A stretch of DNA of 64,000 nucleotides. Source: an uncultured Bryobacteraceae bacterium. GTDB taxonomy: Bacteria; Acidobacteriota; Terriglobia; Bryobacterales; Bryobacteraceae. The stretch lies in the NCBI GenBank assembly GCA_938003835.1, contig CALKXJ010000008.1, positions 124,001-188,000 of the forward strand, in the 5' to 3' direction. A program made the position numbers and the translations under genes. The notes under the pieces are model-generated. The model saw only the letters and a program-made list of their open reading frames with translations, had not been told where the DNA came from and searched no databases. Each line of letters begins with the position of its first letter. Positions within the stretch are counted from its first letter, which is position 1. This document shows, in pieces, positions 28,536 through 33,904 of the stretch.

Positions 28536-30146
<1,611 letters not shown>

Positions 30147-30175: not shown

Positions 30176-31195
30176 CTATTGCTCGGGGACGCCGGCCTCT
30201 TTCTTTTTCTTGAGAAACGTCATCATCTGGCGCAGCTCACGCCCGACCTGCTCGATAAGCAGATCGCGCCCTGCCTCGCGCATGGCGAGAAAATTCTTCC
30301 GCCCGGTGCGGTTCTCCTCGATCCACTCGCGGGCGAAGGCGCCAGACTGGATTTCGGCGAGCATCTTCTTCATCTCCTCGCGGACCTGCTGATTGATGAC
30401 CCTCGGCCCGCGCGTGTAGTCGCCATACTCGGCGGTGTCGGACACCGAGAAGCGCATGTAGGAGAGGCCCCCTTCGTAAATCAGATCGACAATCAGCTTC
30501 AGTTCGTGCAGGCACTCGAAATAGGCGATCTCGGGGGCGTAGCCGGCCTCGACCAGCGTCTCGAAACCCGCCTGAATGAGCGCGGAGCAACCGCCGCAGA
30601 GCACCGCCTGCTCGCCGAACAGATCCGATTCGGTCTCCTCTTTGAAGGTGGTCTCGATCACGCCGGCCTTCAGACACCCCAGCCCTAGCGCGTAGGCGAG
30701 CGCCCGGGGGAGGGCTTGGCCGGAGGCATCCTGATGGATGGCCACCAGGGCCGGCACGCCGACGTCTTCCAGGAACAGCTCCCGCACGCGGTGTCCGGGC
30801 GCCTTAGGGGCGATCATCGAGACGTCGACATCGGCTGGAGGCACGATCTGCTGGAAGTGGATGTTAAAGCCGTGGGCGAACATCAGCGTCTTGCCCGCCC
30901 GCATCCGGGGCGCGATGTCGCGCGCATACACCTCCGGCTGCACATGATCGGGCAGCAGGATCATGACGATGTCGCCCCGCTCGGCGGCTTCCGCCGCGGT
31001 GTAGACCGGCAAGCCCGCCGCCTCGGCCTTCGTCCAGTTCTGCGAACCGGGCAGGTCGGCGACGATGACCTTGACGCCGGAGTCGCGCAGGTTCAGGGCA
31101 TGGGCGTGCCCCTGGCTGCCGTAGCCGATGATGGCGACCTCAAGGCCGCTTAGAGCAGAGAGATTTCCATCCTTCTCGTAGTAGCGTTTAGCCAT
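30176..31195 (-). CDS. ilvC: Ketol-acid reductoisomerase
   Basis: 339-residue class I enzyme. It has the Rossmann motif [17 protein letters not shown], the metal-binding region ([28 protein letters not shown]) and the C-terminal [15 protein letters not shown]. It makes dihydroxy acids for valine and isoleucine. In a typical short KARI the loop after [11 protein letters not shown] sets the NADPH preference; its Ser matches the usual NADPH form. AGGAG five bases before the ATG overlaps the ilvN stop region, so translation is coupled. Confidence 0.96.
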
Positions 31196-31744
31196 TCAAG
31201 CTCCTTTTCTCATGGGATCTTGCAGCACGGGATCGGCCTTGGGGACCGGCGGGGAAAGCCGCAGCTTGCGCGGCTCCAAACTCACGGCGACCATGCCGGA
31301 GCGCGTGACGTCGATATCCCCGTAGGCGCGCATGATGTCGATGAACTCTTCGAGTTTCTCCGCCTCGCCGGTGAGCTCGAGCGCGAAGCCGTCGATCGAG
31401 GAGTCCACCACGCGCGCGCCGAAGATTTCGGCTTCCTTGAGGATGGCCGTGCGGGACTCCATCGGAGCGCGGACGCGCATCAGGAGCATCTCGCGGGCCA
31501 CGGCCGGTTGATCGGTCAGGTCGATGGCCTGGAGCACATTGACCAGTTTGTTCATTTGCTTGATCACCTGCTGGCGCAGTTGCGGATCGACATCGACAAC
31601 GATTGTCATGCGGGAGAGACCCGGATCGAGCGTTCGGGCGACGGTGAGACTGTCAATGTTGTAGCCGCGAGCGCTGAGCACCCCGGTGATGCGCATCAGC
31701 GCGCCGGGTTTGTTTTCCACCAGCAATGAAATGGTTTGCAACAT
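31196..31744 (-). CDS. ilvN: Acetolactate synthase, small regulatory subunit
   Basis: 182 residues with an N-terminal ACT domain (ISLLVENKPGALMRITGVLSARGYNIDSLTV) and the ALS_ss_C domain (GARVVDSSIDGFALELTGEAEKLEEFI). It confers valine feedback on IlvB. The stop TGA directly abuts the ilvC ATG. An AGGAG site follows the ilvB stop. Confidence 0.96.
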   Translation of the reverse strand: MLQTISLLVENKPGALMRITGVLSARGYNIDSLTVARTLDPGLSRMTIVVDVDPQLRQQVIKQMNKLVNVLQAIDLTDQPAVAREMLLMRVRAPMESRTAILKEAEIFGARVVDSSIDGFALELTGEAEKLEEFIDIMRAYGDIDVTRSGMVAVSLEPRKLRLSPPVPKADPVLQDPMRKGA

Positions 31745-31762: not shown

Positions 31763-33493
31763 CTACTTGGGGACGCTGACGGGCTGGGGAGGCCGGAGAA
31801 TCATCTCGTGAATGGCGCCCCCGGCCGGAACCATCGGATAGACATTCTCTTCCGGAGAGACCTTGATGTCGAGCAGGAACGGACCGGGTTCGCTGACCGC
31901 CTGCTCGAGCGCGGGGCGCAGATCGGCGGGCGAGTCCACCGTGCGGCCGGGAAAGCCGTAGGCAGCGGCCAGGCTCTCGGCCTTCGGGAAGCAGTCCAGG
32001 GTCACAGCACAGAGACGGTTGTTGTAGAACAGTTGCTGCCACTGGCGAACCATGCCGAGATAGCCATTGTTGACGACCACGATCTTGACCGGTAAGCCGT
32101 TGGAGGCGATCGTGGCCAGCTCCGGGATCGACATCTGGAAACCGCCGTCGCCAATGACGGCAAAAACCAGTTTGTCGGGACAGGCGAACTGGGCGCCGAT
32201 GGCGGCCGGCAGGCCGAAGCCCATCGAACCGAGCCCGCCTGAATTGATCCACAAGCGCGGCCGGTTGAAGCGAATGAACTGCGCCGCCCACATCTGGTGC
32301 TGGCCGACATCGGCGCAGATAATCGCCTCGCCGCCCGAAATCCGATCGATTTCCACCATCACGTGCTGGGGCTTGATCTCGGTGGAGGAGACCTCCGGCA
32401 CCAGGGGGTGCTCGGCCTGCCAGGCGCGGATCTGCTGCCACCAGGCTCGGCGGGCCTCGGCCTTCTTCGACGCCGCCTCGGGCGCCAGCTCTTCCAGGGC
32501 CTTGATCAGCCGCTGGAGGACCCTCTTGGCGTCGCCGACGATGGGCAGGTCGGCGGCGCGGTTCTTGCTGATCTCCGCCGGGTCGATGTCGACGTGAATC
32601 ACCTTGGCGTGCGGCGCGAAGGCGGCCAGCCTGCCGGTGACCCGGTCATCGAAGCGCACGCCGAGGGCGATGAGCAGATCGGAGTTGGTCATGCCCATAT
32701 TGGCGGCGTAGCTGCCATGCATGCCCGGCATGCTAATGAAGTTGGGGTGTGAGGATGGCAGCCCGCCCAGGCCCATCAGCGTGCAAACGGCCGGGGCATC
32801 CACCAGCTCGACGAGTCGCCGGAGCTCGTCATGAGCCCCCGAGGCGATGATGCCGCCGCCGGCGTACACGAACGGCCGCTCGGCCTCCCAGATCATCTGC
32901 GCCGCGCGGCGGATTTGGCCGGCGTGACCGTCGGTGTAAACCTTGTAGCCGGGAAGATGAATGGCTGACACCGGGCTGTAGTGCGCCTGGGCCTGGAGTA
33001 CATCCTTGGGAAGATCGATCAGGACCGGGCCCCGGCGGCCGGTGGAGGCCAGGTAGAAGGCCTCGTGAACGATCCGCGGCAGGTCGGAAATGCTTTTGAC
33101 CAGGTAATTGTGTTTGGTGCAGGCGCGGGTGATGCCGAAGGTGTCGGCCTCCTGGAAGGCGTCGGAGCCGATCAGCTTGGTGGAGACCTGGCCGGTGATG
33201 GCGACGATGGGGATCGAATCCATAAGTGCGTTGACCAGGCCGGTCACCAGATTGGTGGCGCCCGGCCCGGAGGTGGCCATGCAAACGCCTACTTTGCCGG
33301 TCGCCATCGCGTAACCCGAGGCGGCGAAGGCGGCGTTCTCCTCGTGTCGCACCAGGACGTGTCGCAAGGGGTGCTCATACATTTCGTCGTAGAGCGGCAG
33401 CATCACCCCGCCCGGATAGCCGAAAACGCACTCTACCCCTTCGCGCATCAGGCACTCCAGAAGCATCTGAGAACCGCTCATCAGGTTCGGCAT
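31763..33493 (-). CDS. ilvB: Acetolactate synthase, large catalytic subunit
   Basis: 576-residue ThDP enzyme. The ThDP Glu lies in RHEENAAFAASGYA, the FAD/substrate region in MLGMHGSYAANMGM-like sequence (MPGMHGSYAANMGM), and the ThDP/Mg motif in GDGGFQMSIPELATI...NNGYLGMVRQWQ. Condenses two pyruvates, or pyruvate with 2-ketobutyrate. ATG 33493 is preceded by GAGGTGA at eight bases; an upstream in-frame ATG would lie beyond the attenuator hairpin. Expression is probably controlled by the leader peptide and terminator just upstream. Confidence 0.96.
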   Translation of the reverse strand: MPNLMSGSQMLLECLMREGVECVFGYPGGVMLPLYDEMYEHPLRHVLVRHEENAAFAASGYAMATGKVGVCMATSGPGATNLVTGLVNALMDSIPIVAITGQVSTKLIGSDAFQEADTFGITRACTKHNYLVKSISDLPRIVHEAFYLASTGRRGPVLIDLPKDVLQAQAHYSPVSAIHLPGYKVYTDGHAGQIRRAAQMIWEAERPFVYAGGGIIASGAHDELRRLVELVDAPAVCTLMGLGGLPSSHPNFISMPGMHGSYAANMGMTNSDLLIALGVRFDDRVTGRLAAFAPHAKVIHVDIDPAEISKNRAADLPIVGDAKRVLQRLIKALEELAPEAASKKAEARRAWWQQIRAWQAEHPLVPEVSSTEIKPQHVMVEIDRISGGEAIICADVGQHQMWAAQFIRFNRPRLWINSGGLGSMGFGLPAAIGAQFACPDKLVFAVIGDGGFQMSIPELATIASNGLPVKIVVVNNGYLGMVRQWQQLFYNNRLCAVTLDCFPKAESLAAAYGFPGRTVDSPADLRPALEQAVSEPGPFLLDIKVSPEENVYPMVPAGGAIHEMILRPPQPVSVPK

Positions 33494-33557: not shown

Positions 33558-33607
33558 AAAACCAAAAAGGCCACCGCAGGACTTTGTTTGCCCCGCCGGT
33601 GGCCTTT
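33558..33607 (-). terminator. Attenuator terminator upstream of ilvB
   Basis: On the minus strand an 11-bp perfect stem (33607-33597 with 33576-33566, arm AAAGGCCACCG) and a 20-base loop are followed by TTTTTGGTTTT. It lies between the leader peptide stop (33629) and the ilvB start (33493), where premature termination would block the operon. Confidence 0.75.
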
Positions 33608-33640
33608 CCGTGAATCCCGGTCGGCCGGTCAGGCGGGGCC
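33590..33640 (-). promoter_or_regulatory. Candidate antiterminator pairing in the ilv leader
   Basis: GCCCCGCC at the end of the leader peptide gene (33639-33632) is complementary over eight bases to GGCGGGGC (33597-33590) at the top of the terminator's 5' arm and loop. Only one terminator stem base is shared, so competition may be steric. A stalled ribosome on the Val/Ile/Leu codons would change which fold forms. Confidence 0.45.
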
Positions 33641-33751
33641 GCCTACGATGACCTCAATAATGATGAGGATGACAACGACGGCGGAGAGGATGGAGAGACG
33701 CAGTCCGGCCCTCAGGCTCGCCAGATTCAGCCTGGAGACCGGCCTCTCCAT
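33629..33751 (-). CDS. Leader peptide of the ilv operon, 40 residues
   Basis: A 41-codon frame (ATG 33751, TGA 33631-33629) that contains ILSAVVVILIIIEVIV: six Val, six Ile and seven Leu codons in 40. This is the composition of classical ilv leader peptides, in which ribosome stalling at regulatory codons senses charged tRNA. It lies between a strong promoter and the attenuator hairpin and is followed by ilvB. The promoter places the transcript start one or two bases before the ATG, so it would be translated almost without a 5' leader. The match of promoter, peptide, hairpin and operon function makes this a confident call without homology. Confidence 0.75.
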   Translation of the reverse strand: MERPVSRLNLASLRAGLRLSILSAVVVILIIIEVIVGGPA

Positions 33752-33758
33752 ACCGGCA

Positions 33759-33787
33759 AGTATACCTCAAGCCTTCCGAGCTTGCAA
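33759..33787 (-). promoter_or_regulatory. Promoter of the ilvBNC-cimA operon
   Basis: On the minus strand TTGCAA (33787-33782), a 17-base spacer and TATACT (33764-33759). The expected start is near 33752, just before the leader peptide ATG at 33751. Confidence 0.7.
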
Positions 33788-33904
33788 CGGCCGCCGCAAG
33801 CGAATTCTTGCCGTCTCGCTCTCCGTGGGGCGGCAGGTGCGCGGCACCGGGCGATCTGGAACCGTGATTGCTCCGCTCAAGGACAACGTCGGAGGCACTC
33901 TGCG

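Follow-up and report, generated by a model that had tools for sequence, protein, structure and literature searches.

The question raised by this locus is how the DNA between a promoter and the start of ilvB might control an operon for branched-chain amino acid synthesis. The window, by which we mean the whole 64,000-nucleotide stretch that was analysed, comes from a genome of 5.0 Mb (G000), and the nearest named relatives of its ilvB among the matches listed are Bryobacterales MAGs of the Acidobacteriota. We examined the minus-strand region 33787–33492, from the promoter through to the ilvB start (Table 1). The products of ilvB, ilvN, ilvC and cimA all scored far above the NCBIfam cut-offs, and the four genes nearly abut, with gaps of about 18, 0 and 29 nt. 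From the parts of the region, their conservation, the covariation of three helices, a codon bias and the operon itself, we read it as very probably a ribosome-mediated transcription attenuator of the ilvBNC-cimA operon.

Table 1. Leader elements and operon genes in the window
Feature	Position	Strand	Description
Promoter	33759–33787	−	TTGCAA 33787–33782, 17-nt spacer, TATACT 33764–33759
Leader peptide frame	33629–33751	−	40 codons, MERPVSRLNLASLRAGLRLSILSAVVVILIIIEVIVGGPA; ends TGA; ATG almost at the predicted 5′ end
Control codons inside leader frame	within 33629–33751	−	GTCGTTGTCATCCTCATCATTATT, then GTCATCGTA
Segment 1, GAGGUC	33650–33655	−	pairs with 33640–33635 in the 1:2 hairpin
Segment 2, GCCCCGCC	33632–33639	−	directly before the stop codon; pairs with 33597–33590 as the outer antiterminator helix
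GGCC after the stop codon	33623–33626	−	pairs with 33604–33601 as the inner antiterminator helix
Segment 3	33590–33607	−	terminator 5′ arm AAAGGCCACCG (33607–33597), overlapping the antiterminator 3′ side GGCGGGGC (33597–33590)
Segment 4, terminator 3′ arm	33566–33576	−	CGGTGGCCTTT
Terminator U tract	33564–33568	−	T run after the stem
ilvB, acetolactate synthase large subunit	31763–33492	−	ATG 33492 set by comparison with relatives; TIGR00118, 781 bits
ilvN, acetolactate synthase small subunit	31196–31744	−	NCBIfam match
ilvC, ketol-acid reductoisomerase	30176–31195	−	NCBIfam match
cimA, citramalate synthase	28536–30146	−	TIGR00977, 717 bits

A first-pass annotation of the window had proposed ilv attenuation from a TTGCAA-17-TATACT promoter, a 40-codon frame, a perfect 11-bp terminator with a T tract before ilvB (33607–33566) and the gene order ilvB-N-C-cimA. 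All of these were recovered at the places given for them, and the attenuation reading is supported by the conserved frame, codons and stop position and by three competing helices. The test named for it, that relatives should keep the Val/Ile codons and show compensatory changes in the stem, gave a positive result throughout the family and, for a diverged form of the leader, over the order.

The DNA before ilvB was taken from 34 genomes of the family, from 18 in two sister families within the same order and from three further genomes of the class. The leader precedes ilvB in 34 of 34 family leaders, drawn from different genera, and all are built alike, with TTGCATTT-17-TAnnnT, a start codon 4–27 nt further on and a frame that contains a run of Ile/Val codons. 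Typically this reads ...GGTCATCGTAGCCGGCCCCGCCTGA, then AGGCCACCGGCGGGG...CCGGTGGCCTTTTT. The sister families retain a diverged core (CCCCGGCTGA ... GCCGGGGC), and no leader was found before ilvB in the three further class genomes (L046, L048 and L049). A covariance model built from the 34 leaders gave a match in all 41 family genomes sampled from the class (window E 4.8e-22) and also matched in a few other families. With this model the leader was present only once in the window's own genome; the weak further matches there resembled coding sequence or chance. An independent scan, which looked for a terminator downstream of an Ile/Val-rich frame, recovered 27 of the 34 family leaders; it gave no hit on their reverse complements and found no leader before ilvB in 79 other genomes. 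These include the Bryobacterales MAG L057, where the promoter is kept and the Ile/Val run and terminator are absent, so the element can be lost.

The window promoter matches the consensus at 9 of 12 positions and is the sole promoter-like site within 1.5 kb, compared with 0.2 in shuffled sequences. Thirty-three relatives share its build and place, with spacers of 16–18 nt; they were scored with the family −35 box TTGCAT, which generic promoter scoring misses. In the window, seven bases separate the −10 box from the ATG at 33751. Since the start point is expected 6–8 nt below the −10 box, the 5′ end is predicted to lie at or next to this ATG. The start codon lies 4–9 nt past the −10 box in 19 of the 34 family leaders, the window included, and the 5′ end is expected there too. 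The near-leaderless start had been described as unusual; the position of the ATG holds and is widely shared, and there is a precedent in Corynebacterium glutamicum (PMC11857589). Attenuation might instead operate as proposed on a transcript with an ordinary 5′ UTR, its start point upstream and the leader ATG not leaderless. The start codon is 11–27 nt past the −10 box in the remaining 15 family leaders, and in sister family f3, which uses another promoter (TTGACC-17/18-TAnnnT), the distance is mostly about 38 nt or more. We nevertheless think this rather unlikely, given the 4–9 nt spacing from a conserved −10 box in the window and 18 further leaders and given the prediction that Acidobacteria have many leaderless genes (a mean of 13.3% over three genomes, PMC3160421). 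A near-leaderless leader, with its start point placed from the promoter position, is thus a plausible trait of the family and not of the whole order; the sister families have longer 5′ ends.

About 31 of the 34 family leaders (among L002–L033 and L051) share a conserved dyad, CATAAnnnnnTTTATG, whose spacing from the promoter is constant, some 11–27 nt before the −35 box. It is missing from the window, L010 and L015; the equivalent place in the window is about 33798–33815, and GCAAG-AATTCG-CTTGC occurs nearby. The dyad resembles a transcription factor operator and could possibly provide a second layer of control.

All 34 leaders carry an Ile/Val-rich frame. Ile and Val together account for 27.5% of leader codons; the figure for ilvB across the family is 14.2%. 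In the leaders, the Ile/Val codons are concentrated at codons −5 to −16 and peak at −5 to −7 and −9 to −14. The choice among synonymous codons is also distinctive: GTA makes up 39% of Val codons in the leaders against 5.7% in ilvB, and ATT makes up 51% of Ile codons against 21%. GUA has been named as a regulatory codon in the leaders of C. glutamicum and Mycobacterium tuberculosis (PMC11857589, PMC13236596). The variable 5′ half of the frame conserves only the start codon, the reading frame and the Ile/Val codons.

The frame could in principle encode a true small hydrophobic (membrane) protein, with the terminator as its 3′ end and ilvB using a promoter further down. Its C-terminal half is indeed hydrophobic (VVVILIIIEVIV) and the frame is conserved. 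However, the peptide varies from 18 to 51 aa across the family, its N-terminal half is unrelated between genera, and a protein gives no reason for the GTA and ATT preference. What is conserved apart from the codons lies in RNA helices: in L003 (G029) the frame ends early (GTAGTCTGA), yet CCCCGC and its pairing are kept outside it, which argues that segment 2 is conserved as RNA. A second promoter-like site was not found in the 1.5 kb searched, and there is scant space for one, since only 30–60 nt separate the T tract from ilvB in several relatives. A small protein is therefore very improbable, and we retain the reading of the frame as a leader peptide.

The terminator stem in the window is perfect and is followed by TTTTT; a hairpin scan with a loop limit of 8 omits it, as its loop is longer. 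The leader RNA folds with a z-score of −4.81 relative to shuffled sequences, and none of 200 shuffles folded as well. RNAalifold picks the terminator (3:4), and 6 of its 12 pairs show compensatory double changes. It could be asked whether this is a plain terminator against upstream read-through, with no regulated antitermination: the terminator is strong and the conformer that contains it is the most stable. The conserved promoter, however, sits just upstream of the terminator, which must then act on the operon's own transcripts, and the antiterminator covaries as well. A plain terminator is accordingly extremely unlikely, and regulated termination remains our reading. One genus of sister family f3 (g39; L040, L042, L043, L052, L053 and L054) has a poor T tract and retains the antiterminator pairing; its mode of control may be altered.

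Covariation is seen in each of three mutually exclusive helices: 1:2, 3:4 and 2:3, the last of which adjoins the stop codon. The antiterminator, 2:3, links the stretch immediately ahead of the leader stop codon with the loop side of the 5′ arm of the terminator. We counted 2:3 on anchored segments because the MAFFT alignment A1 mis-registers segment 3 at an extra G; segment 3 was anchored by sequence only and complementarity was not used. In the family, 227 of 238 cells were paired, and there were 12 double changes against 2.9 in species-shuffles, a value reached in none of 5000. With the sister families included, there were 28 double changes against 8.7 (0 of 5000); this set contains a whole-family switch from CCCCGCC/GGCGGGG to CCCCGGC/GCCGGGG. 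Compensatory pairs include CCCCGCT with AGCGGGG in four genera and CCCCTAC with GGAGGGG in L023. A further pair, TTCGCC with GGCGAA in L016, lies outside the count, as the sequence anchor misses it. For the sister families alone, an own-versus-swapped test of 2:3 was not significant because the sequences hardly vary. The 1:2 hairpin (GGGGUC / GGCCCC) paired better with its own partner than with swapped partners in the family (10 of 20000 permutations reached the observed value), and variants occur in L019 (GGGGUU / AGCCCC) and L010 (GGGGUC / GACCCC). In the window this hairpin is imperfect, and a local GGCGG/CCGCC hairpin likewise hides segment 2.

Folds were computed with the ribosome at set positions. 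For a ribosome at codon −10, the part of the window leader that starts at 33646 and runs through segment 3 folded with pairs 33639–33632/33597–33590, 33630/33599 and 33626–33623/33604–33601 (−31.7 kcal/mol). The first-pass annotation had described an 8-bp antiterminator that overlaps the terminator stem by one base, so that the competition might be unconventional. The pairing exists, and the one-base overlap holds for the outer helix only; once the inner GGCC/GGCC helix is included, the antiterminator occupies six of the eleven bases in the terminator 5′ arm. Across the family, the antiterminator formed in 30 of 34 leaders when the ribosome was masked at codon −10 before segment 4 was made, and the terminator formed in 30 of 34 with the ribosome placed at the stop; as these are equilibrium folds with an assumed ribosome footprint, they demonstrate compatibility and not kinetics. 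In the window, the conformer with the terminator is favoured by 9.8 kcal/mol over the one with the antiterminator. The switch must therefore depend on timing.

For the start point, translation, stalling and termination, we infer the following sequence of events. Transcription would begin just ahead of the leader ATG, by one or a few bases, with a ribosome trailing the RNA polymerase along the leader frame. With ample Ile-tRNA and Val-tRNA, the ribosome would reach the UGA stop and cover segment 2 and the GGCC after it, leaving segment 3 to pair with segment 4; transcription would then stop at the 11-bp terminator, about 70 nt before ilvB. Where Ile or Val is short, the ribosome would stall in the Ile/Val codon run and cover segment 1 but not segment 2. 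Segment 2, together with the GGCC past the stop, would pair with segment 3 (GGCC...GGCGGGGC), the terminator would be blocked and the operon would be transcribed. If the leader is not translated, the 1:2 hairpin would hide segment 2 and the terminator would form. The last Val-Ile-Val codons lie near segment 2, which a ribosome stalled there would cover, so stalling at these codons should not aid antitermination; their conservation may be owed to segment 1 and its loop.

In some bacteria, ilv genes are under T-boxes. The alternative terminator and antiterminator folds and the strong folding z-score would also suit a translation-independent RNA switch of this kind or a riboswitch, and in certain others the ilv genes are under a ppGpp riboswitch (PMC10272879). 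No Rfam family reached threshold in a scan of the leader, with T-box and ilv-linked motifs unlisted even at E up to 5, and the leaders, with their variable 5′ half, contain no conserved aptamer-like region that we could find. Such a switch is thus extremely unlikely, and ribosome-mediated attenuation is the reading that we compare with known systems.

The attenuators of enterobacterial ilvGMEDA and ilvBN have a leader peptide with Ile/Val/Leu codons, alternating segments and a terminator before the structural genes. The leader described here resembles them in all three respects. The enterobacterial transcripts differ in having an ordinary 5′ UTR with a ribosome-binding site and in operon content, and we know of no homology between them and this leader. 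There is also a likeness in arrangement to the C. glutamicum ilvBNC leader and the ilvB-II motif, which precede an ilvBNC operon and have an Ile/Leu/Val-rich uORF with a GUA control codon, a set of anti-antiterminator, antiterminator and terminator, and a single copy per genome (PMC11857589, PMC10272879). The uORF there is leaderless, and a near-leaderless one is predicted here. They belong to another phylum, however, and no sequence likeness was seen. Their peptide is usually 15–17 aa, whereas it has 40 codons in the window; here, moreover, the antiterminator uses bases on both sides of the leader stop codon, and cimA belongs to the operon. The M. tuberculosis ilvB1NC leader likewise has a uORF with LVVI control codons that include GUA and a UGA stop, and its terminator/antiterminator switch is backed by a codon-swap reporter; it is from another phylum, has a different sequence and helices, and its operon is described as ilvB1NC (PMC13236596). 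The ilvB-OMG and Leptospira ilvB motifs are also ilvB-linked RNAs with a BCAA-rich uORF and proposed attenuation (PMC10272879), but their consensus differs and the ilv-linked Rfam families do not match the leader here. A result that counts against the attenuation reading comes from a similar ilvB leader in Streptomyces, where, as reported in PMC1262725, replacing the codons presumed to exert control made no difference.

Beyond the family, ilv attenuation in Acidobacteriota is, as judged from sequence, patchy and of more than one build, since the scan finds other versions in f34 and in G459 (L248) and none in most of f6. Six members of f34 (L262, L264, L266, L267, L269 and L270) have a different Ile/Val attenuator about 700–875 nt before ilvB, upstream of whatever precedes it; the peptides end ...RFG, CGGTTCGGATGA pairs with TCACCCGAACCG and the terminator lies around GACGGC(C). 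G459 has one attenuator before an ilvB. In class family f6, the scan found such a leader at one of 21 loci, two of which have less than 250 nt of upstream DNA, and the model found one in G465. A phylum-wide search with the pattern GGATGATG...GGCCRTCA gave mostly unrelated matches. A family-type leader was also seen in G450 (L176/L178), filed under family f7, whose ilvB is 81% identical to that of the window; either horizontal transfer or a contaminating contig would account for it. We suggest tentatively, as a proposal that may well not hold, a clade-wide Acidobacteriota class with a leaderless start lacking a ribosome-binding site, in which the rare GTA and ATT codons would sense particular Val and Ile tRNAs and of which the f34 leaders would be a second build.

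The inclusion of cimA in the operon, as had been proposed for the window, is conserved. Of 37 family genomes, at least 33 have cimA on the same strand as ilvB and about 1.6–2.0 kb beyond it, a distance that leaves space for ilvN and ilvC. The exceptions are G008 (2.7 Mb off), G021 (full cimA not found), G016 (an incomplete genome) and G032 (only the C-terminal part matched). A single switch over Val/Leu and citramalate-derived Ile synthesis would thus be the usual arrangement in the family. Elsewhere in the window, leuA-leuB (leuA at 767–1942) is preceded by an inverted repeat, GTGCCCCG (683–690) and CGGGGCAC (715–722), with no T tract and no obvious leader peptide.

Leader peptides of ilvB are known or proposed in enterobacteria, Corynebacterium, Mycobacterium, Streptomyces and Leptospira (PMC10272879, PMC1262725, PMC13236596, PMC11857589). 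Our literature search, which covered few subscription journals, found no report of an ilvB attenuator for Acidobacteriota. The mechanism is known; what is well supported as new is a family-wide Acidobacteriota leader that has no Rfam family and no earlier report in the literature searched. The attenuator can be assigned to a whole family, as the model matches every family genome sampled, and it would extend ribosome-mediated attenuation, here with a predicted near-leaderless leader, beyond the phyla from which most descriptions come. With 34 natural variants to compare, the rules that govern how segments pair, where the stop lies and which codons are used can be tested directly. For these bacteria, one switch would couple Val/Leu synthesis to the threonine-independent citramalate route to Ile.
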